Positions 15,562 through 59,990 of a stretch of 64,000 nucleotides of DNA are shown here, piece by piece. Position numbers and translations under genes: made by a program. Every line of letters starts with the position of its first letter. Position 1 is the first letter of the stretch. The stretch is from Candidatus Bathyarchaeota archaeon (GTDB taxonomy: Archaea > Thermoproteota > Bathyarchaeia > Bathyarchaeales > Bathycorpusculaceae). The stretch lies in NCBI GenBank assembly GCA_026014725.1, contig JAOZHV010000052.1, forward strand, positions 1 through 64,000, written 5' to 3'. Below the pieces are notes generated by a model that saw nothing but the letters and a program-made list of their open reading frames with translations, was not told where the DNA came from and made no database searches.

Positions 15562-16494
15562 TTACTTAGCTGCTGCTTTTGCTAGTTTCTTTAGGATTTG
15601 GTCTTTAGCGATTGTGTAAGCGATTGAATAGTCAAATAGTCCTTGTGCTTCAGCGGTGGCGCGTTTAATCATTTCTGTTTCCGTTTTGATTTTGAGTTTG
15701 CCGATGGCTAATGCGCCGATGCCGAAAACGCCTGCTTTGAGTTCTACCCCGTCATCGTTTGGACCTAAACCTTCGACGCCGAGGGGTTTGATGGCGTTTA
15801 TGTCTGCGACGATTTTGCATTTGGGTGCTTGATTGAGGTCTGCTTTTGAGAGAAGTTGAATTCCTCCTGCGCCTGCGGCAAGGATGATTTCTGCGTCTTT
15901 GACCGCGGTTGCTGTTTGCTCAGGTTTTGAGACTTCAACAACTTTCACCCGTGTTGCACCGCATTCAGCATTGATTTTGTCAGCGACAGCTTGACCCTTT
16001 GCCATTGAGCGGCTGCTGATGGTTACGTTTGCTTTTTCTGCTGCGTAGATTCTTGCGGCTGTCTGCCCGACTGGTCCTGTGCCTGCTAGAACGGTGACGT
16101 TTTTGCCTTCTAAGCTACCTAAACCTTTCTCCATGGATGCTCCGAAAGTTTTTGCTACTGCGGCAGCAGCTGTTGAGTATCCTCCTCGTGGGTCAACGAT
16201 TATGCTGTTGCCCCATGGAGCGGATTTCATGGCTTTCTGTGTTGCTTGAACGACTTTTTCGACTTCTTCAAAGTTGCTTCCGTTGATGAAGACTTTTGTG
16301 TGTGCTGCACCCATCGGTCCGCGTGGGAAGAGCAGGTCATAGACGATTTTTGGGGCGTCTTCGCCTGTGACGTTTTCATACTTGAATATCATTGAATCTG
16401 GGAATGCGTCTATGGCGACGAGCATGTCGAATGGACTGCAATATTTGTCTGTGTCTAAGAAAACGAAAACTGTTTTGTAGGTTGGTTGTGCCAA
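15562..16494 (-). CDS. mtdB: NAD(P)-dependent methylene-tetrahydromethanopterin dehydrogenase (MtdB-like)
   Basis: 310 residues, matching the MtdB family that oxidises methylene- to methenyl-tetrahydromethanopterin with NAD(P)+. The N-terminal substrate domain begins with FVFLDTDKYCSPFDML. A Rossmann dinucleotide site, GTGPVGQTAARIYA, starts near residue 138, and conserved ADINAIKPLGVEG and GVFGIGALAIG follow. Methanogens use F420-dependent Mtd instead, so this enzyme suggests NAD(P)-coupled C1 metabolism, for example a tetrahydromethanopterin branch of the Wood-Ljungdahl pathway. No other C1 gene lies in the window. Confidence 0.92.
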   Translation of the reverse strand: MAQPTYKTVFVFLDTDKYCSPFDMLVAIDAFPDSMIFKYENVTGEDAPKIVYDLLFPRGPMGAAHTKVFINGSNFEEVEKVVQATQKAMKSAPWGNSIIVDPRGGYSTAAAAVAKTFGASMEKGLGSLEGKNVTVLAGTGPVGQTAARIYAAEKANVTISSRSMAKGQAVADKINAECGATRVKVVEVSKPEQTATAVKDAEIILAAGAGGIQLLSKADLNQAPKCKIVADINAIKPLGVEGLGPNDDGVELKAGVFGIGALAIGKLKIKTETEMIKRATAEAQGLFDYSIAYTIAKDQILKKLAKAAAK

Positions 16495-16634
16495 TTTTTT
16501 ACACCTTTACTTGTGTGTGATACAGTTTAACGATTTAAGAATTGTCCAGACCAAACACGCTAATCAAGTTCTATATGGGAAGCGGCAGGTTGCCAGAGCA
16601 AAAAGGCTTTTTCTTGATTGATTAGCTGCCGAGG

Positions 16635-16688
16635 GCATATTTGTATCCTAATAGTGGTTCTATGCAGAAACCTATAGGGGGTAGGTGT
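16635..16688 (+). repeat. Repeat block 2, copy 1
   Basis: The 54-base block reads GCATATTTG, then CTATGCAGAAACCTATAG, then GGGGGTAGGTG. Two further copies, inverted, lie at 50175-50228 and 50259-50332. The copy at 50175 matches at about 46 of 54 positions. In this orientation a TATA-like CTATAG precedes the G-tract. Confidence 0.8.
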
Positions 16689-16724
16689 TATTGACGCTTT
16701 TTCAAGCCAAAGCGTGTTGGTTTT

Positions 16725-16828
16725 TTCACTGCGACCATACGCTACTACGACCATTAGTGCACATTTGCCCCTTAGGGATGGTCGCGGTAAAACTGCCGTG
16801 TCAGATAATACTTGATGGTCGCAGTAAA
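16725..16828 (-). repeat. Quartet of 14-bp inverted boxes (locus 1)
   Basis: Boxes at 16725-16738 and 16741-16754 read TTCACTGCGACCAT and GCTACTACGACCAT. Boxes at 16778-16791 and 16815-16828 read ATGGTCGCGGTAAA and ATGGTCGCAGTAAA, the reverse complement. The outer pair is complementary at all 14 positions if one G-U pair is allowed, so a cruciform or RNA hairpin is possible. The same architecture occurs twice at 49863-50137. Confidence 0.8.
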
Positions 16829-16862
16829 CCCGCCCACAACCACCCAGCGTCCTAAACTCGCG

Positions 16863-16900
16863 TTATATAAGGGGATAGGGGTAGGTGCAGAGCAACAAAA
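16863..16900 (+). repeat. Repeat block 1, copy A
   Basis: TTATATAAGGGGATAGGGG followed by TAGGTGCAGAGCAACAA. It shares the TATA-like box, the G-tract and the GCAGAGCAACAA end with copies at 19603, 28574, 32111, 49581 and 49975. It points toward the 3' end of the next gene, so it is not that gene's promoter. Confidence 0.8.
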
Positions 16901-16957
16901 CTTCAATATTACGCCAATTTACAGCATAAACAGGGTTGCTATAAAAAAGCGCTATAG

Positions 16958-18424
16958 TTAACTCTGTTTTTTCATTTTGCTTCTTTTAAGAAGTATCTGC
17001 GCCGTTTTGCGCGGGTTTTTAATTGCCCTCATAACCTTGTAACGTGTGAACGTTGGATTAGCCAGATTGGCTCTTGCACACAACTCTTGCAGGTCTTTTG
17101 CTGAAAACTCTGGTGTCTCAACCAGCGGTTCAGTTGCCGCCAGCGCGAAATCGCAAAAGCCTTCTTTGAGGAAACCGCCATCTCTTGCTTGCTCATAGAA
17201 TGTTGTGCCGTAGAGTGGCATGGCGATGCTGAAGATGAAGCTGTCAGCACCCAACCGCTTAAGCTTATACGCAAACTTTATGGTTTCTTCGATGTCCGCT
17301 TTGGTTTCGCCGATTAACCCCATGACAAAGAAAACACCCACTTTAATCCCCGCCTTCTTGCAGGCAACCACAGCGTGCTCAACGCTTTTTAGGTCTAACT
17401 CTTTTTTGATGACATCGTTAACTATACGTTGCACGCCTGATTCTGGAGCAACACGGATTTTTTTGCAGCCTGCCTTCTTCATTTTTCTAAGGAGCGCTTC
17501 ATCTAGTGTGTCTGCTCTGATGCCGTTGGGTGTGAACCATTCAATGCGCAATTTTCGTTCGACAATTAAATCGCAAATCTCTGCCATGCGCTTCTTGTCT
17601 AGCGTCATGTTTTCGTCGTAAAAATCAATCTGCTTAATCCCGTAAGTCTTAACTAAAAATTCCAATTCATCAACCACGTTTTTTGGGCTTCTTGCACGCC
17701 ATTGCCGACCCCAAACGATAGCATTAGAGCAAAACACGCAGTTGTATGGGCAGCCTCTGCTTGTTGTAACTATTGTCCATGGTTTGCTTATTTCGCCACG
17801 TAGCGGAATCTCTTTTACGGCTTCGTTGTAGATATTCATCGGAAGCAGGTGCCTTGCAGGAAAAGGCAGAGAATCCATATCGGTAATAATTGGACGCTTG
17901 CCCGTGAGAACAGTTTTACCGCTCTTCTTAAAACCTAAACCAGCAATTTTTTCGAATTCGTGTTTGCCTGAGTTTAGCATGTCAACGAGTTCGGAAACTG
18001 TGTTTTCAGGTTCGCCGATGACCACAAAATCAACATCAGGCTCTGAGAGGCAGGTTTCTGGGCGCGCTGAAGGATGCTGACCAATCAACACAACTGTAAC
18101 TTGAGGTTTAACTTTTTTTATGGCAGTAACTACTTCAAAGGCAGTTTTTGACCAGCCAGAAAACGGAATCTCAACAACAACCACGTCAGGATTCCACTGC
18201 TTCACGCGTTGTGCAATGGTTTCTGCGCTTAATCCGACACGGTACTTTGTTTCGTCTAAGTCAGCAAGGTTCTTCCAGCCCTCGGTTGGAGCATCAATAA
18301 TGCATGCCTTATGCTTTTTTTCCAGAACCGCAGCCACAGTTGCTAAAACTATGGGTGGAAAAACGTTCGGTCTTCCCCATGCTTTGGGCTGAATCCTTGG
18401 TGGATTAATCAAGCAGACACGCAT
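16958..18424 (-). CDS. B12-binding-domain radical SAM protein
   Basis: About 488 residues. The N-terminal 150 residues resemble the cobalamin-binding fold seen in many radical SAM enzymes (CLINPPRIQPK at the start, then VVLIGQHPSARPETC and DFVVIGEPE). The radical SAM core follows with TTSRGCPYNCVFCSN, where the three cysteines bind the [4Fe-4S] cluster that cleaves S-adenosylmethionine. Such enzymes often methylate or rearrange unreactive carbons; the substrate is unknown. ATG at 18424 is preferred, with GAGTG upstream. The neighbouring cbiB gene makes a cobalamin link reasonable. Confidence 0.88.
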   Translation of the reverse strand: MRVCLINPPRIQPKAWGRPNVFPPIVLATVAAVLEKKHKACIIDAPTEGWKNLADLDETKYRVGLSAETIAQRVKQWNPDVVVVEIPFSGWSKTAFEVVTAIKKVKPQVTVVLIGQHPSARPETCLSEPDVDFVVIGEPENTVSELVDMLNSGKHEFEKIAGLGFKKSGKTVLTGKRPIITDMDSLPFPARHLLPMNIYNEAVKEIPLRGEISKPWTIVTTSRGCPYNCVFCSNAIVWGRQWRARSPKNVVDELEFLVKTYGIKQIDFYDENMTLDKKRMAEICDLIVERKLRIEWFTPNGIRADTLDEALLRKMKKAGCKKIRVAPESGVQRIVNDVIKKELDLKSVEHAVVACKKAGIKVGVFFVMGLIGETKADIEETIKFAYKLKRLGADSFIFSIAMPLYGTTFYEQARDGGFLKEGFCDFALAATEPLVETPEFSAKDLQELCARANLANPTFTRYKVMRAIKNPRKTAQILLKRSKMKKQS

Positions 18425-18476
18425 ATGGTGCACTCTAAGTCAGAAATACCCAAAAGCTTCGATTAATAGCTTTGCA

Positions 18477-19478
18477 CTAAATGGGCAAAAACCAAAAACG
18501 CACAACCACAAGCACGACAACGCATAGCAGAACCCACAAAACAATCGTAACATCCCTAATACGCAAGGCATCCAAGATTTTCTCGCCTGTCAGTGGCTCC
18601 AATGGTTCGCCGAGAATGTACTGCCCAGGCTTTTCCAGTTGCACCCGGAGTGCACCTGCGACCGCGGCCATTGGCCAACCGTGATTTCGGCTGGGTGTTT
18701 TTCTGTGGTCGCGATAGGCGATTCTCCAAGCGTTCTTGGCATCCATGCGTAGGATTGCAGCGGCGCCAATCATGAGCAGTGCGGTGAGTCGTGTTGGGAT
18801 GTAGTTTACGATTGTGTCTAGATTTGCGCTAAACCAGCCTATGTTGATGTGTTCTTTTGTTTTGAAGCCAACCATGCCGTCAAGTGTGTTTATGGCTCGG
18901 AAAGCGATAGCTCCTGTTACACCGAACAGTGCAAAAGACATCATTGGTGAGAGTTTAAAGTCGATTAGGTTTTCTGCCATGGATTCGATGACTGCGCTGC
19001 TGATCTGTGCTCCGTTTAGGTCTTTTGAGTCGCGCCTTGAGAAGTGGTGGTACTTTTTTGCTTCGTTCAAATTGTTTTGTTGGATGGCTTTGGCTGCGGC
19101 TTTTGCCCAGTCAGTCTCAAGCTTGATGCATATGGTCATTTTGAGCAGGATGATGCCGATGAAGCCGTAGATGATGATGTTGATGTAGAAGGGTACGAAG
19201 GTGTAGATTGCCCACAAACCGAAGAACACTGGAAGCGCAAAAACAGAAATCACCGTTAACCCCAAGAGAACACCCAGAAACTTTTCCGTGTTCGCGTTTT
19301 TGCTCTTAAAGAAGGGTTCAATTTTCTTTGTGAACTTGCCCATCAAAACGGTTGGGTGCACTTTGAAAACCCATTTGTCAGGGTAATTAGGCGATGGGTC
19401 ACCGATAGCCAAATCTAACAGTATAGCAAAAACCAACATTTCCAAGGCAGTCAGGATGTTTAGTAGGTTTAGCTCCAA
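18477..19478 (-). CDS. cbiB: Adenosylcobinamide-phosphate synthase
   Basis: Integral membrane enzyme that joins the aminopropanol side chain to adenosylcobyric acid in cobalamin assembly. 333 residues with several hydrophobic segments. Family motifs are visible: ILLDLAIGDPSPNYPD, then HPTVLMGKF, and AINTLDGMVGFK in the centre. The start is TTG. In the same direction upstream lies CbiZ, which feeds salvaged corrinoids to this step, so the two make a cobinamide salvage set. The gap between them is 403 bases and holds a repeat block. Confidence 0.95.
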   Translation of the reverse strand: MELNLLNILTALEMLVFAILLDLAIGDPSPNYPDKWVFKVHPTVLMGKFTKKIEPFFKSKNANTEKFLGVLLGLTVISVFALPVFFGLWAIYTFVPFYINIIIYGFIGIILLKMTICIKLETDWAKAAAKAIQQNNLNEAKKYHHFSRRDSKDLNGAQISSAVIESMAENLIDFKLSPMMSFALFGVTGAIAFRAINTLDGMVGFKTKEHINIGWFSANLDTIVNYIPTRLTALLMIGAAAILRMDAKNAWRIAYRDHRKTPSRNHGWPMAAVAGALRVQLEKPGQYILGEPLEPLTGEKILDALRIRDVTIVLWVLLCVVVLVVVRFWFLPI

Positions 19479-19881
19479 GGGTACCCAAGCATTCCGTTTT
19501 GAGATACATCCAACAAACAGTTAATATCAATTACGGTAAACACCACAACAGAAATAGTTGCAATTTTTTTATTATAACCTATGATGCTATGTTACCAAAG
19601 ACTTGTTGCTCTGCCATAGACCCTATCCCCATATTTTTCAGTAGATCAAGATTTTTGTTTGGTTTTGTTTTTCTATTAAAAGAAGAAGAAACACTTGCCC
19701 TTGTTCTTCATCTTCTTTTGGGTTTGGCAGTGCAGTTTGTTGTTGTTTTTGCGTCTGTTACGGGCTACTGGCTGGTTGTCGCGGATTGCACTAAAGCAGA
19801 ATAAGTATTTTTTTGATCTACTGTTAAAGGCGGAATTTTTCAACATGTTTTGGAGCGGAAAACTTTCAATGACACTTACCA
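19479..19881. other. Gene gap between cbiZ and cbiB
   Basis: About 400 bases, A/T-rich. It contains repeat block 1 copy D at 19603-19640, which points toward cbiB and ends about 125 bases before the cbiB start. I see no coding region. Confidence 0.6.
19603..19640 (-). repeat. Repeat block 1, copy D
   Basis: On the minus strand: AAATATGGGGATAGGGTCTA, then TGGCAGAGCAACAAGT. It matches the other block 1 copies across the TATA-like box, the G-tract and the GCAGAGCAAC end. Confidence 0.8.
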
Positions 19882-27358: not shown

Positions 27359-28522
27359 ATGCTAAAGAAGATGAGAATTTCCAACCTTAAGGTAATAACA
27401 GCAATTACAATCGTCATCGTAGCTTTTTCCTTGTTGCCGCTGGGCAAAACGCAAGATGAAACGCCAACATACACATCTTCATTTCTGTTGCTGAATCGAC
27501 CAGACGGCAACGTAACTTACGAGCTTAATGTGACAATCTCCCAGACGCTTTACCAGTACTACAGGAGTAAGAGCCATGTCTTGTTCTCACTTGAGCAGTT
27601 TGGCAAGTTCGTGACGCCTTACACACTAAAACCCATAGCTGATAGTCTATGGCAGATTTATGATAACCAAGAAGACTTCACCAACGGCGTCCTTATGCTC
27701 GTCCATCAAATCAAGTACGAAGAAACACTCCCAGGTAAGTATCCAGTTGAAACACTAGTCGAAGGTAAAGGCGACTGTGACCTGTTCGCACTTATCGCGG
27801 CTTCAATACTTAAGGCAGGAGGAATCAACACTGTGCTACTCTATTATGAAGATGAGTTGCATATGCAGATTGGAGTGGAACTTGCCAGTGCACCCAATGA
27901 TGCAAGAAATAGTGTCTATTTTGTCAACCACCAAAATGTCAAGTATTACATTGGTGAATGTACTGGTACAAACTGGCGCAATGGCTGGCGAATCGGTGAA
28001 TGCCCAACCCCATACCAGAACGCTTCAGCCAAAGTCATAACATTAAACAACGTAGAACAAACCTCTATCGGGCAAGTTGCCGCAAACCTCAAAGAACTAG
28101 ACCCAAGCAACGTAACACTGCAGGTCTCATCATCACTTATGATATCAATCAACAAGTTAACAATCAGCGGCCAAATCCTCCCCGAAGTCGCAAACGAAAA
28201 TGTTACGATACAAGCAAAAATTAACCATTCAAACTGGATAACCATCGGTACTGTGCAAACACAACAGAATGGTCAGTTTCAGTACGACTGGGTTCCCCCA
28301 ACAGTCGGCGACATCGCAATTCAAGCTAGCTGGGCAGGTAACAAACAGTACAATGGCGCAACCAGCGCTCAAGTTAGCATCTTTATCGTGCCCTGGTACA
28401 TGGTTGCAGTTGTAGCATCTTCAGCGTTAGCTATAATTGTAGTCTTTGTTGCGTTTGTCAAACTTAGATCTAAAAAAGAAGTGGCGCCAAGTACTTTACA
28501 GGGTGATACAGGCATCTTATAG
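27359..28522 (+). CDS. Membrane-anchored transglutaminase-like surface protein
   Basis: 387 residues. Signal peptide or anchor at 8-28. A transglutaminase-like domain near 110-200 has the nucleophile in GKGDCDLFALIAASIL and a histidine in DELHMQIGVEL, the Cys-His pair of such peptidases. An Ig-like domain near 260-345 and one C-terminal transmembrane helix follow. A role in cleaving or crosslinking surface proteins is likely. It may be co-transcribed with the gene upstream (52-base gap). Confidence 0.8.
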   Translation: MLKKMRISNLKVITAITIVIVAFSLLPLGKTQDETPTYTSSFLLLNRPDGNVTYELNVTISQTLYQYYRSKSHVLFSLEQFGKFVTPYTLKPIADSLWQIYDNQEDFTNGVLMLVHQIKYEETLPGKYPVETLVEGKGDCDLFALIAASILKAGGINTVLLYYEDELHMQIGVELASAPNDARNSVYFVNHQNVKYYIGECTGTNWRNGWRIGECPTPYQNASAKVITLNNVEQTSIGQVAANLKELDPSNVTLQVSSSLMISINKLTISGQILPEVANENVTIQAKINHSNWITIGTVQTQQNGQFQYDWVPPTVGDIAIQASWAGNKQYNGATSAQVSIFIVPWYMVAVVASSALAIIVVFVAFVKLRSKKEVAPSTLQGDTGIL

Positions 28523-28745
28523 GGACTATCGTATTGGCGCAAAACAGTTCAATAATATGCTGAAATTTAGCCCTTTAAATAGGGGGATAGGGTCTATCGA
28601 CAGAGCAACAAATTTTTGCAACACGGCATCAAACTCGATGGGCTCTACTTTGTTTTGCCCTCAAATATTGCCTTAAAAAGGTAGATTATAATCGGCGCGT
28701 TGATGGTGCCTCTTGGTAAGCATCGCACAATCAGTAAAAAATAAA
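28523..28745. other. Gene gap between convergent surface-protein genes
   Basis: A 223-base gap between two stops. It holds repeat block 1 copy B at 28574-28612 and little else. Because both genes end here, the repeat cannot be a promoter for either. Confidence 0.6.
28574..28612 (+). repeat. Repeat block 1, copy B
   Basis: TTTAAATAGGGGGATAGGGT, then CTATCGACAGAGCAACAAA. It has the best TATA-like box of the family, with the G-tract starting immediately after it. Transcription from it would begin near CAGAGC and run into the 3' end of the convergent gene. Confidence 0.82.
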
Positions 28746-31003: not shown

Positions 31004-31906
31004 TTATTTGTAGAGTTTTTCCCATCGGTTGAAGAGTTCGAGGACTTCGTCGCCGTTGTGGTCTTTGAGGAATTCTCGTGTTTCTTTGTCGGCAACGGCG
31101 TTCTTTTGGAACTCTCGGATGTAATCAGCTTTCTCAGCTAGGAAGATTATGCCGTCTACACCTTGCCTTGCAACCCTTGTGGCAACGGTCATAACTTGTT
31201 TTGTGGGTGCCACTGTGTCCCATGTTTCGTTTGGTCCACGGACATAAAAGTTCACGAAGAAGGGCTTCTTTAGTTGGCTTTTGAAGCCGCGTGCGATGGT
31301 TTCCCAGTACCATGGTGTTGGGTAGGCTTTGCTGAACATGGGCACTACAAAGTAGTCAGCGTATTGTGCTAAAGCGTCAAAGTCGTATCCGAAGCGCAGT
31401 TTGCCCAGTAGGGGATCAGGCAAAAGGTTGACGAAAAGTGGTTTGCCGCTGACGATTTCTTTAACTTCGGCAAGGAAGTCTGTTACTGTTTTTGCTCTCC
31501 ATTCAACCCAGCTTAAGCCGCTTTTGGCTTGTTCTTTTATGCATCTGGGGCATGTGCAGAAGTGCTGGTCAGCGAAGTGTTGGCTACTGATGCTGATGCC
31601 GGGGGTGACTTTGGCGCTTTCAGCGATGATTTTTAGGTTGTATTCTCTGGCTTCTGGGTTAGTCATGCAGACGACATCCCAGCGCAGATTATAGCGCTTG
31701 TTTGTGCGCAGTGCTGGGCCCCATGAGCTGACAGATACCCAGTCTGGGCGTTTTGCTGCCATGAAGTTGTCGCCGAAGCATGCGATGTTTGTGTACATTT
31801 CTGGGTTGGGTTTTCCAACGATTCCTGATTCTGATTTTAAACGGTAGAAGTTGTAATCGACGCCTTCAACAGGCTCTGGTTGATAAAGAAATACGCCGAA
31901 TTTCAA
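31004..31906 (-). CDS. TIM-barrel-like protein with FCTCPRC motif (paralog B)
   Basis: 300 residues, paralog of 21207-22091. Shared landmarks: start FGVFLYQPEPVEG, SSWGPALRTNKRYNL, QHFCTCPRC, then KSGLSWVEWRAKTVTDFL, and an aligned C-terminal end (FNRWEKLY against VNSWAKLY). A conserved aspartate-histidine region (HFADQHFC) sits before the cysteines. Function is unknown; a glycoside-hydrolase-like TIM barrel is the best structural guess. It is a stand-alone unit whose upstream gap holds repeat block 1 copy C. Confidence 0.7.
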   Translation of the reverse strand: MKFGVFLYQPEPVEGVDYNFYRLKSESGIVGKPNPEMYTNIACFGDNFMAAKRPDWVSVSSWGPALRTNKRYNLRWDVVCMTNPEAREYNLKIIAESAKVTPGISISSQHFADQHFCTCPRCIKEQAKSGLSWVEWRAKTVTDFLAEVKEIVSGKPLFVNLLPDPLLGKLRFGYDFDALAQYADYFVVPMFSKAYPTPWYWETIARGFKSQLKKPFFVNFYVRGPNETWDTVAPTKQVMTVATRVARQGVDGIIFLAEKADYIREFQKNAVADKETREFLKDHNGDEVLELFNRWEKLYK

Positions 31907-32221
31907 GGTTTCAATTCACCATAGTTTGTGTCTTTTTGTATGGAATTGGCTTAGCAAGTTATAAGTCTTTGCAGTTGATGGGCTATGTTTCTGATTTTTG
32001 GATTATGAGGATGTTTGCTTTGTAGTATAATCATAAGCTTGCTGACCTGTGCGCTTGTGGAAATGGGATTTAGGTCTTTTTTAGACTAATTTAGGCTCTT
32101 TTTGAGGTTTTATTGCTTTGCCAGTAGACCCTATCCCCTATAAAAGAGGAAGTTTCATCTTTGTTAGCAACTGCTCTATTTCGGCTGGCTATGCCATAGA
32201 AAAGTGGGCTGTCTTGGATGC
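31907..32221. other. Gene gap upstream of paralog B
   Basis: A 315-base gap between minus-strand genes. It holds repeat block 1 copy C at 32111-32146, about 200 bases before the paralog B start and pointing toward it. No coding region is evident. Confidence 0.6.
32111..32146 (-). repeat. Repeat block 1, copy C
   Basis: On the minus strand: CTTTTATAGGGGATAGGGTC, then TACTGGCAAAGCAATA. Same arrangement of TATA-like box, G-tract and GCARAGCAA end as the other copies. Confidence 0.78.
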
Positions 32222-49116: not shown

Positions 49117-49491
49117 TTAGGAGGAGGGTTGACCTGCGACTGGGCTTAGGTCTTCTTGTAGTTTGGTTTGGGCTTCTTTGACTTGGCTGCGTACGCGTTC
49201 TTCTTGTCTTGCTAAAACGGTGCTTCTTGTTTCTAGGAGTTCTTTGCGGTCGATTAGGTCTTGGTTTACTTTTGGTTTTTCTGCTTTTACTAGTAGTGAG
49301 CCGACTGCTTTGTAGATGGTTGCGTTGTCGGCTGTTTTTTGTAACTCCGCTAGTGTTTGTTCTACTTCGGTTTTTTCCATTTCGACTTGTTGTTTTTGTG
49401 CGATGATTGTTTGTAGGGTTTGTTGGAGTTGTTGGAGTCTTAGGAGTCTTTCTTGGACGTTAGGTGGTAATTTTGAAAGTTCGTCGCTCAA
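49117..49491 (-). CDS. pfdB: Prefoldin beta subunit
   Basis: 124 residues. Two long coiled-coil arms (near 5-50 and 70-115) flank a beta hairpin (NATIYKAVGSLLVKA near 55-69), the classic prefoldin shape. It holds unfolded proteins for the thermosome. The alpha subunit is not in the window. The gene starts the operon with DUF3194 and the DHH phosphoesterase. Repeat block 1 copy E lies about 90 bases upstream. Confidence 0.93.
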   Translation of the reverse strand: MSDELSKLPPNVQERLLRLQQLQQTLQTIIAQKQQVEMEKTEVEQTLAELQKTADNATIYKAVGSLLVKAEKPKVNQDLIDRKELLETRSTVLARQEERVRSQVKEAQTKLQEDLSPVAGQPSS

Positions 49492-49580
49492 ATCTTTATC
49501 CTTCCGTATCCAGCATTACGGGGAGCTCTTAATTAAGTATTTCCGACTCTTTTTTTCTGTGGTTGTTGTTTGTGTGGTGG

Positions 49581-49618
49581 TTTGTTGCTTTGCGGTTGAC
49601 CCTATCCCCCTATTTAAA
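49581..49618 (-). repeat. Repeat block 1, copy E
   Basis: On the minus strand: TTTAAATAGGGGGATAGGGT, then CAACCGCAAAGCAACAAA. Nearly identical to copy B in its first 20 bases. It lies upstream of pfdB and points toward it. Confidence 0.82.
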
Positions 49619-49862
49619 GGGGTTTTTTTCTTGGTGTGAGTGTGGATGCAAAAGACCGCCGAAGAAATCGCAAGAACAGCAATTGGTTAGGACAATGTGT
49701 TTTGGGCGCTAGCATGGCCCATAGGGTTTTTTCTTTCGCCCGTCAGCTAAACCAAGCCTGAACGCGTCCTATAAACAATTTTGCGACTTAAAATAACGAT
49801 TAAAAATGGCTGATTATTGAAAGGAGCTTTCAACCGCTACGATAACAGTGTTGGGTTTGGCG

Positions 49863-49971
49863 TTTACTACGTACATGACGGTTGCGACCAAAAATTTACC
49901 ACGTACATTCCAACAGCCCTCCCTTGTACGTAGTAAACAAAGCCTGGAGCCCTTGCAATGTACGTAGTAAA
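49863..49971 (+). repeat. Quartet of 14-bp boxes, TACAT variant (locus 2a)
   Basis: TTTACTACGTACAT at 49863 and TTTACCACGTACAT at 49895, then the reverse complements TTGTACGTAGTAAA at 49924 and ATGTACGTAGTAAA at 49958. The forward-forward-reverse-reverse plan equals the other quartets, but the right half of each box is TACAT rather than ACCAT. Confidence 0.8.
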
Positions 49972-49974
49972 CAG

Positions 49975-50013
49975 GCTTTGCTCTGCCGCGAGCCCCCCTC
50001 CCCCTATAAAAAG
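49975..50013 (-). repeat. Repeat block 1, copy F
   Basis: On the minus strand: TTTTTATAGGGGGAGGGGGG, then CTCGCGGCAGAGCAAAGC. The most divergent copy, in which the ATAGGG part became AGGGGGG. It sits between two box quartets. Confidence 0.7.
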
Positions 50014-50026
50014 CAATTTGGACGGT

Positions 50027-50137
50027 TTTACTACGACCATCAAAGAGCCAACTGGGGCTGCCTTGGAGAATTTCACCACGACCATCCACGCGGGGCAATA
50101 TGCCGTAATGGTCGTAGTAGCGTACGGTCGCAGTAAA
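50027..50137 (+). repeat. Quartet of 14-bp boxes, ACCAT variant (locus 2b)
   Basis: TTTACTACGACCAT at 50027, TTCACCACGACCAT at 50072, then ATGGTCGTAGTAGC at 50108 and ACGGTCGCAGTAAA at 50124. The last two boxes are separated by 2 bases, exactly as in locus 1, where the same GCGTA junction occurs. Confidence 0.82.
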
Positions 50138-50174
50138 AAGTCAACATGCTAATGGCTTAAAAAACCGCCAATAG

Positions 50175-50228
50175 CACCTACCCCTCTATAGGTTTGTACA
50201 TAGAACCTCTAATAGGCTCCAAATATGC
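50175..50228 (-). repeat. Repeat block 2, copy 2
   Basis: CACCTACCCCTCTATAGG on the plus strand, then CATAGAACC and CTAATAGG, ending CAAATATGC. Inverted homolog of 16635-16688, at the same position relative to the box quartet. Confidence 0.8.
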
Positions 50229-50258
50229 TTGCTCCATAACGGTGCAGGGCGCAGATTT

Positions 50259-50332
50259 CACCTACCCCTCTATAGTTTCTGCATAGAATTCCTAATAGCA
50301 TCCAAATAGGATACTAATAGACGCCAAATAGG
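50259..50332 (-). repeat. Repeat block 2, copy 3 with tandem sub-repeats
   Basis: Starts CACCTACCCCTCTATAG, contains GCATAGAA, then two direct sub-repeats of about 22 bases (CTAATAGCATCCAAATAGG and CTAATAGACGCCAAATAGG). Copies 1 and 2 each have one such unit. Confidence 0.75.
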
Positions 50333-50341
50333 TTGGTGAGC

Positions 50342-57156: not shown

Positions 57157-57251
57157 AACTGAATCCAGATAATCATAGTGCAGGCAGGATAGTTGGCAAT
57201 CCTTGTCCTCTTAGAGACATATTTGACACTCTCACGCATCCAATTAACCAT

Positions 57252-57408
57252 CAAGACCGCTTGGAGAAAGCCATAAACGAACATCTTTAGGCACGACACA
57301 TTCTGGAATGCGGTGATAACCCTGAACAAGTTTGCGGACAGCTTGAAGTTTGCAGCATGGATTTTTTCAGAGGTTTTGGTTTATCCAAACAAACATCTAT
57401 GCTGTTAA
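57252..57408 (+). pseudogene. Degenerate copy of the 5' end of a radical SAM gene
   Basis: Positions 57252-57325 align without gaps to 58538-58611 at about 55 of 74 positions, covering the leader AAGACCGCTTGGAGAAA and the first codons. The start ATG is ACG here. The frame still reads RHDTFWNAVITL (intact gene: SHDTFWNAVVTM), then diverges and stops at 57406. It is a remnant of a second copy. Confidence 0.65.
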
Positions 57409-58436: not shown

Positions 58437-58562
58437 GCTTCTGGCTATATCTTTTTAGAATTATAAAAGCATTAAGTTGCCAAATCTGGGCCAGTCGTGG
58501 AGAAATCTTTAACATGTCCAAACGTTCAATAAAGTATTAAGACCGCTTGGAGAAAAACCTGC

Positions 58563-59990
58563 ATGAGTATCATTAGCCACGACACTTTCTGGAACGCCGT
58601 AGTCACAATGCCCATGACTAAGAAAATGCTCCAGCTGTCCCTCAAAAAATGCGGTGCATGCGGCAGAACTGTTCTGGAAGCGGCACTAGACGACTACGCA
58701 GGCAAAACTGACCGAAAATGCGACAAGTGTAGCGGACTCTATTCTCAGATTATTGGTTTCTGGGTTGAATTTTTGCGCAGAGGTCTCGGCTTTAAGCGAG
58801 CTAAAGTTGAGAAACTCTTAACTGACCGCTATGCGCGAAGGGCTGTTTTGAATCTGGTTCGTTCATTTGCTTATTTTGGCATAAAAAAACCCATGTCGCT
58901 TTGCGCGCCGTTTTTGGTGGTTTGGGATTTCACTCACAAATGCAACCTTCAATGCAAACACTGCTACTCCAACAGCGGTGCAGTTCAAGAAGAAGAATTA
59001 ACGACGCAACAAGCGTTGGCAGTTGTTGACCAATTAGCTGACGCAGGTGTTACCGCATTAGCATTTTCAGGCGGCGAACCCCTCACAAGAAAAGACTTTT
59101 TCCAAATTGCAAGGCACGCCGCTGACCGCGGACTCTACGTGTCGGTTGCAACAAATGGCACCCTGTTAACCAAGGAAAACGTGCGAAATCTCAAGCAAGC
59201 CAAAGTTAACTATCTAGACATCAGCATCGACGGAGCCTCAGCAAAAACTCACGACGAGTTCCGAGGAGTAGAAGGTGCATTCGATAAAGCAGTAGCAGGA
59301 CTAAAAAACTGTGTAGAAGCCGATTTATGCGTCTGCATAGCCACAACCGTCGGCAAGAATAACATGGAAGAGTTGCCTGCCATCATCGATTTAGCAGAAC
59401 AAATGCAGGCGGAACGCTTCACCTACTTCAACTTTATCCCGACTGGGCGCGGCAAAGCACACTACGACCAAGACCTCTCCGCTGAAGAACGCGAAAAAAT
59501 CATGCGCTACTTGCTCAACCGCATGTCAGCAGGTTGCAAAACCACCATCCTAACCACGGCGCCCCAACTTGCTCGTGTGGCACAGCAATGTCAAGGTCCA
59601 AGCGGAACAGGCGAAGTAGTGATGTCTATGGCGCACATGCAAACCGTCAAAGTCACCAAAAAGGCTGTGCCGCTGGCAGATTTCATCGGGGGATGCGGAG
59701 CAGGCAGACTCTACTGTTCCCTTTCACCACAAGGCGACGTGCACCCGTGCGTGTTTCTGCCCGTGAAAGTGGGCAACCTAAAAACCGAGAAGTTCCAAGA
59801 TGTATGGCTGAACGCTCCGCTCTTTAACGCTTTCCGAAACAGAGCAAACCTCAAAGGCTCATGCGGAAGATGCGATTACAAGTTCATCTGTGGCGGTTGC
59901 CGAGCGCGTTCAGCAGCATACCATAACGGCGACATGCTTAACGGTGACCCAGGCTGCATAATGGGAGTGAAAGGTGCCAAAAGTGCCTGA
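58563..59990 (+). CDS. Radical SAM/SPASM maturase-like protein
   Basis: 475 residues. An N-terminal zinc-ribbon-like part (CGACGRTV...CDKCSGLY, residues 31-60) is followed by the radical SAM core with CNLQCKHCYS near 128 and GGEPLTRKD near 180. The SPASM domain near 390-460 holds auxiliary cluster cysteines (CGRCDYKFICGGCRARS). SPASM enzymes modify peptides or act on heme-like substrates. No peptide gene is visible. It overlaps the DUF362 gene by 17 bases, a tight functional link. Confidence 0.9.
   Translation: MSIISHDTFWNAVVTMPMTKKMLQLSLKKCGACGRTVLEAALDDYAGKTDRKCDKCSGLYSQIIGFWVEFLRRGLGFKRAKVEKLLTDRYARRAVLNLVRSFAYFGIKKPMSLCAPFLVVWDFTHKCNLQCKHCYSNSGAVQEEELTTQQALAVVDQLADAGVTALAFSGGEPLTRKDFFQIARHAADRGLYVSVATNGTLLTKENVRNLKQAKVNYLDISIDGASAKTHDEFRGVEGAFDKAVAGLKNCVEADLCVCIATTVGKNNMEELPAIIDLAEQMQAERFTYFNFIPTGRGKAHYDQDLSAEEREKIMRYLLNRMSAGCKTTILTTAPQLARVAQQCQGPSGTGEVVMSMAHMQTVKVTKKAVPLADFIGGCGAGRLYCSLSPQGDVHPCVFLPVKVGNLKTEKFQDVWLNAPLFNAFRNRANLKGSCGRCDYKFICGGCRARSAAYHNGDMLNGDPGCIMGVKGAKSA

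Follow-up and report, generated by a model that had tools for sequence, protein, structure and literature searches.

A modular intergenic repeat with a TATA-like core and its coincidence with gene-order breaks in Candidatus Bathyarchaeota

Elements in the window and in its genome

The window, as we call the whole 64-kb stretch of DNA analysed here, belongs to a genome of 2.56 Mb in 63 contigs (G000). It carries six copies of a motif that the initial annotation had described as a dispersed 38-base repeat, together with the neighbouring modules collected in Table 1. The motif, hereafter the C module, is ~45 bp long and comprises a TATA-like box, a G-run and GCAGAGCAACAA (blocks C1 and C2). All six copies were recovered by pattern and model searches. 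The layout is less uniform than claimed: at 19603 the box is degenerate (GAAAAATATGGGG), the copy at 49975 carries GGGGGAGGGGGG and GCAGAGCAAAGCC, and the exact GCAGAGCAACAA occurs only at 16887 and 19614 among the six. Nor was the idea of a 38-base unit borne out, as the 38-mer is a module within composite elements of up to ~480 nt. Two such composites lie in the window, A-B-C at 16635-16903 and A-A-B-C-B at 49860-50335. The A module of copy A has an inverted copy near 50175-50331, and the G module of copy B was also found at two other copies of the same genome (C44:314710 and C59:126183).

Table 1. Repeat modules in the 64-kb window
Feature	Position	Strand	Description
A module, same composite element as copy A	16637..16687	+	ATATTTGTATCCTAATAG ... 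GCAGAAACCTATAGGGGGTAGGTG
B array, copy A element	16725..16828	+	four half-sites, CGACC/GGTCG subtype
B half-sites	16725-16738, 16741-16754, 16778-16791, 16815-16828	+	
C module, copy A	16858..16903	+	TTATATAAGGGGATAGGGGTAGGTGCAGAGCAACAAAAC; pattern and model matches
C module, copy B	19599..19636	-	degenerate TATA box
G module upstream of copy B	19656..19781	-	CGACAACCAGCC...CTTCTTCTTTTAATAGAAAAACAAAACCAAACA
F module upstream of the C module at 28570..28615	28518..28540	+	TATAGGGACTATCGTATTGGCGC
C module, reported copy (28574)	28570..28615	+	TTTAAATAGGGGGATAGGGTCTATCGACAGAGCAACAAA
C module	32106..32145	-	pattern and model matches
C module	49579..49622	-	~118 nt upstream of a same-strand gene start (ORF 49117-49491)
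B array, GTAC subtype	49863..49971	-	downstream of C at 49978-50016; nested hairpin of ~15 and 13 bp
C module, diverged 3' end	49978..50016	-	pattern and model matches
B array, GGTC subtype	50027..50137	-	upstream of C at 49978-50016
Tandem A modules	50175..50331	-	A2 at 50175-50199 and 50259-50282; A0/A1 at 50199-50227 and 50292-50331

Two further features of the window were recorded. A 491-aa protein encoded at 16958-18433 has 12 matches in G000 and many paralogues in congeners (~35-38% identity), an expanded family in the genus. Positions 57209-57314 and 58495-58600 form a 106-nt direct repeat of 72% identity, apparently unrelated to the element modules.

Scanning the whole genome showed the family to be far larger than six. 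The strict pattern GGGGATAGGG-N4..9-GCARAGCAA gave 31 matches in G000, and a weight matrix derived from 30 of these 31 copies detected ~52 copies in 1.1 Mb; the reversed pattern and the reversed sequence each yielded 0, and chance is therefore excluded. A sequence-only model found ~99 C copies across the whole genome, with E-values that are not independent since the model was partly trained on G000 copies. The commonest 12-mers of the sampled G000 sequence derived largely from the element and its neighbours.

Analysis of gene positions, predicted with a simple hexamer-based caller, indicated that 51 of 52 sampled G000 copies are intergenic, the single exception lying inside a weak, doubtful ORF. 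All six window copies fall in gene gaps under these calls, as had been reported. Copies A (16863) and B (19603) had both been said to point into convergent 3' ends; this is true of A, while B faces gene 18477-19478 from its 5' side, in the same direction, and of the six only 16863 and 28574 run towards the 3' end of the gene that follows. Orientation relative to the next gene was random in G000 (27 same, 25 opposite) and likewise in the genome of a sister species, G011, where none of 66 copies of a second subtype (see below) lay inside a gene and 31 were directed with and 35 against the next gene. A class of gene promoters was rejected for this reason, and the earlier statement that the copies do not drive the genes beside them is correct for the class as a whole. 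A motif can be the commonest one between the genes of a genome, and include a TATA-like box, without being a gene promoter.

Modular architecture, subtypes and distribution

Comparison of the copies revealed mosaic elements, of which C is one module and in which the modules keep a fixed order and orientation. The block order is A0-12-A1-16-A2-38-E-33-C1-21/22-C2-31-D, with F and B arrays optional; the upstream side may carry A, F, hairpin-forming E or B arrays, or G, and the downstream side D and others. A TATA-plus-G-run core is common to A, F, C and D. The C module is not palindromic and does not fold back on itself. The B arrays are nested inverted repeats of the form TTTACTACGTACAT ... ATGTACGTAGTAAA, or of the subtype TTTACTACGACCAT ... 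ATGGTCGTAGTAAA, and the two whole arrays tested gave strong single-strand folds (z = -3.8 for the array at 49863..49971 and -4.1 for the other). With its combinatorial modules in fixed order, its intergenic position and its high copy number, the family is of the BOX-like kind; BOX is modular.

Further modules were noted on the downstream side. Short GTATATAC or GTACATAC arrays replace D after several G000 copies (C49:54008, C49:116115, L001 and L005) and form a further downstream module family. In G011, many subtype-II copies, for example C7:39550 and C3:119291, are followed by a conserved hairpin (GGATACGGAAACGTATGC), after which some of them have another TATA-like box (TTTAAATAAGGGG); this is the counterpart of module D in that genome.

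Pairwise comparison of 64 G000 copies showed that in all 16 pairs with matching upstream sides the downstream sides were unrelated, and that in four of the five pairs with matching downstream sides the upstream sides were unrelated. Conservation over all G000 copies has a sharp 5' boundary at the TATA box, and the same boundary was evident on inspection of the G011 copies. On the strength of the pair comparison and of this sharp start, C is the common joint of freely assorting sides. The suggestion that the copies might be ends of a mobile element came close; C is a hinge shared by many different modules on both sides, rather than the terminus of a single unit. Facing C modules across one shared box were found in G018 (L230) and in G011 (C15:66211).

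The distribution of the repeat was determined with two queries. The subtype I model gave 99 copies in G000, 67 in G018, 60 in G029, 42 in G009, 14 in G006 and 13 in G011, a few in G015, G013, G022 and G004, and none in 22 other congeners or in 39 genomes of other genera. In G011 the repeat takes a form of its own, subtype II (CTTTATATAAGGGAGGGGAGGTAGACGCTGAGACGTCGCGTGG), with the same geometry; 66 copies of it were counted in 1.19 Mb (reversed control, 3). A subtype-II-like pattern matched 104 times in G011, 66 in G018, 47 in G009 and 35 in G013, at most nine times in each of seven other congeners and not at all in the remaining 21; genomes that scored zero could carry subtypes invisible to both queries. 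Among the genomes searched the family is patchy and confined to one genus, a restriction of the BOX-like type, and in a one-gene tree the element-rich genomes are scattered among poor ones. All named relatives sharing the TATA-like context are Candidatus Bathyarchaeota, and the host is assigned to this group on that basis. Strict-pattern matches in unrelated bacteria lacked this context where they were inspected and look like chance. Exact matching of three module patterns to viral contigs gave 0 matches, and a viral origin was set aside on that result.

Coincidence with gene-order breaks

Many archaea lose their gene order quickly, and the responsible agent has, to our knowledge, rarely been identified. 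Adjacency was scored gene by gene from the best tblastn or blastn matches against half-genomes. When G000 was compared with G011, 16 element-bearing gaps were broken and one kept, against 107 broken and 240 kept (31% broken) among element-free gaps (p 2e-7); the broken gaps include 16494-16957, 19478-19881 and 31906-32221 of the window. The reverse comparison gave 24 broken and none kept, against 101 and 242 (29% broken; p 1e-12). Between G018 and its sister G011 the counts were 10 broken and one kept, against 2 and 17 (11% broken; p 2e-5) for the control, here the other gaps within the same loci. In the G018 alignments the flanks were mostly 81-90% identical to G011, and homology on both flanks ended near the element; where both flanks could be mapped, they lay mostly in different places or contigs. 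Because element gaps coincide almost always with broken and rejoined gene order, the elements look like recombination hinges and not like ordinary gene switches.

Since the tendency of long non-operon gaps to break is only partly removed by gap-length controls, the following figures are to be read with that in mind: for G000 against G011, gaps of >=200 nt with identity >=55% gave 14 broken and one kept (element-free 26/40; p 1.3e-4), tandem gaps of >=150 nt gave 13/0 (element-free 21/26), and at >=300 nt p is 0.008-0.02; for G011 against G000, gaps of >=200 nt gave 18/0 (element-free 39/35; p 7e-5). Among the partner gaps in G011, 9 of 22 carry a strict element, compared with 10.5% of gene ends (p 2e-4). 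As only these nine do so, either the breaks are not all clean copy-by-copy exchanges or elements have since been lost. The single collinear site (L232 ~1505-1550; G011:C3:55448) has an element in both sisters, ~90 nt before a gene start and of different subtypes: the TATA box is identical and the part after the box differs.

Across several species of an uncultured group, almost all gaps that hold this short defined sequence are junctions, which allows direct questions about the crossover site and about a putative enzyme.

Interpretation and known repeats

We regard the family, with a probability of about 60%, as a genus-specific, BOX-like modular intergenic repeat in which C acts as a recombination hinge. 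Amplification would have taken place independently in several species and produced the species-specific subtypes, which keep the same core geometry. Dispersed copies would recombine at or beside C, so that what lies upstream in one copy is joined to what lies downstream in another, and the flanking operons would be swapped together with their upstream and downstream modules. That copies recombine with one another and that the elements cause the breaks is what we infer from the patterns above; association with breaks is not causation. Exact matches among copies (median 28-29 nt) offer little for ordinary homologous recombination. Candidate routes are plain microhomology repair and the action of either a site-specific recombinase or an integrase of low specificity. 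A site-specific recombination site would confine the crossover to a short core served by a dedicated recombinase; what bears on this here is the hinge at C and the breakpoints, and the recombinase is putative. It seems rather improbable that C is the target of a dedicated putative recombinase, with chromosome-wide shuffling, element-flanked operons serving as movable cassettes and subtypes co-evolving with the enzyme.

Other readings of the breaks were weighed. The elements could be passive markers, with rearrangements of other cause falling between transcription units and repeats persisting where nothing is disrupted. Gaps with an element have a median length of 463 nt and those without one of only 84 nt, and long element-free gaps (>=200-300 nt) are themselves often broken (39-57%). 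The excess nevertheless survives the length and orientation controls (the tandem gaps above), the G011 partner gaps are also element-enriched and sequence is exchanged at C itself; we consider passive marking unlikely. Very improbable are mis-joins at repeats. All the assemblies consist of many contigs and the named relatives are metagenome-assembled genomes, in which repeats are the classic points of short-read mis-joining; against this, the longest exact match to another copy has a median of 28.5 nt in G000 and is at most 53 nt in G011, a length that would be small beside the k-mers in common assembly use, 13 gaps are broken and one kept in G000 when gaps with matches of >=40 nt are left out, and two independent genomes, G000 and G011, gave the same outcome. 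MITE-like, non-autonomous elements inserted as units by a transposase, with the breakpoints secondary or due to chance in permissive gaps, would account for the high copy number, the patchiness, the species-specific amplification and the strictly intergenic position, and C44:314710 and C59:126183 do share a whole upstream unit to the end of GCAGAGCAACA. Yet the same C occurs in opposite kinds of unit (upstream plus C, and C plus downstream), which two fixed ends would not give, flanking genes are separated where simple insertion would leave them together, and the sides assort independently at C instead of moving as one unit. The element ends are variable, and no empty site was seen among the comparisons. 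A search for Y1 (IS200-like) transposases gave 0 in five genomes that all carry the element (G000, G018, G011, G013 and G006), which excludes this enzyme as the general mover and rules out a REP/RAYT system. An origin as MITE-like units is accordingly judged improbable.

The remaining readings concern a role for the motif itself. In an archaeal core promoter the TATA box lies ~25 nt before the start, and in both subtypes the TATA-to-GAG distance is 28-29 nt, a geometry that fits an archaeal start site; judged from sequence, a promoter role for the box is plausible. A box that drives a small RNA from GCAGAGC / CTGAGA would be compatible with the hinge; in its favour are the resemblance to the boxes upstream of tRNA genes and the retention of the box at the orthologous site despite the change of the rest. 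That the copies are small-RNA promoters is nonetheless quite doubtful: the conserved downstream sequence ends by ~30 nt, the spacer is G-rich, the region needing to melt is not A/T-rich, and a structured RNA found no support, RNAalifold on 14 aligned A-E-C copies giving -1.2 kcal/mol with no meaningful pairs and Rfam at the gathering threshold giving no match. Sites that are short, numerous, strictly intergenic and randomly oriented to the genes could also suit a chromosome-organising protein, but most of the motif differs between sister species and it is missing from many congeners, which makes such binding sites highly unlikely.

Comparison with described systems places the hinge-bearing repeat nearest to small interspersed families. 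BOX, RUP and SPRITE of Streptococcus pneumoniae are likewise small and interspersed, with high copy in one species and reduced or absent in relatives, and were judged parasitic and not functional for the host (PMC3049150). The archaeal element shares the small size, the dispersal, the copy number and the patchiness, but has an archaeal host, no known sequence relation, a shared TATA-like core and a link to synteny breakpoints; secondary structure is extensive in the pneumococcal repeats, whereas no conserved RNA structure was found in the A-E-C part. Archaeal MITEs (SM1-SM4 of Sulfolobus, and those of haloarchaea) resemble it in being non-coding, dispersed, present in tens of copies and connected with genome plasticity (PMC10969869); here, in contrast, modules are exchanged at an internal hinge, terminal inverted repeats and target duplications were not established and a parent transposon was not found. 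The core, the internal hinge and the breakpoint link set the family apart from both groups. REP/BIME sequences with RAYT (Y1) are also high-copy intergenic repeats (PMC3733652 for REP families), and the B and E modules are palindromic as well; unlike them, C is no palindrome, and the Y1_Tnp domain is absent as described. In Thermococcales the IntpTN3 integrase drives inversions, using segments down to 104 bp with low specificity (PMC5495485). There, too, archaeal chromosomes are rearranged by recombination that is not ascribed to the native homologous machinery; the enzyme is known in that case, while here it is putative and the junctions are marked by a defined repeat. The literature searched, a scope outside which most subscription journals and preprints lay, held no description of the repeat and nothing relevant on repeats in Bathyarchaeota.

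Single copies were also followed between species. For copy 16863, comparison of the orthologous gap in 15 congeners showed that the downstream neighbours differ, and no clean empty site was seen; near the 3' end of the same gene G029 has an A module and G009 a C-like module. At G000:C49:103917-103959 and L100 (G029:C35:9813-9849) an element occurs at seemingly the same position beside the same gene, in two genomes that are 76% identical at one marker protein; given this shared position, at least some copies appear to be old and vertically kept.
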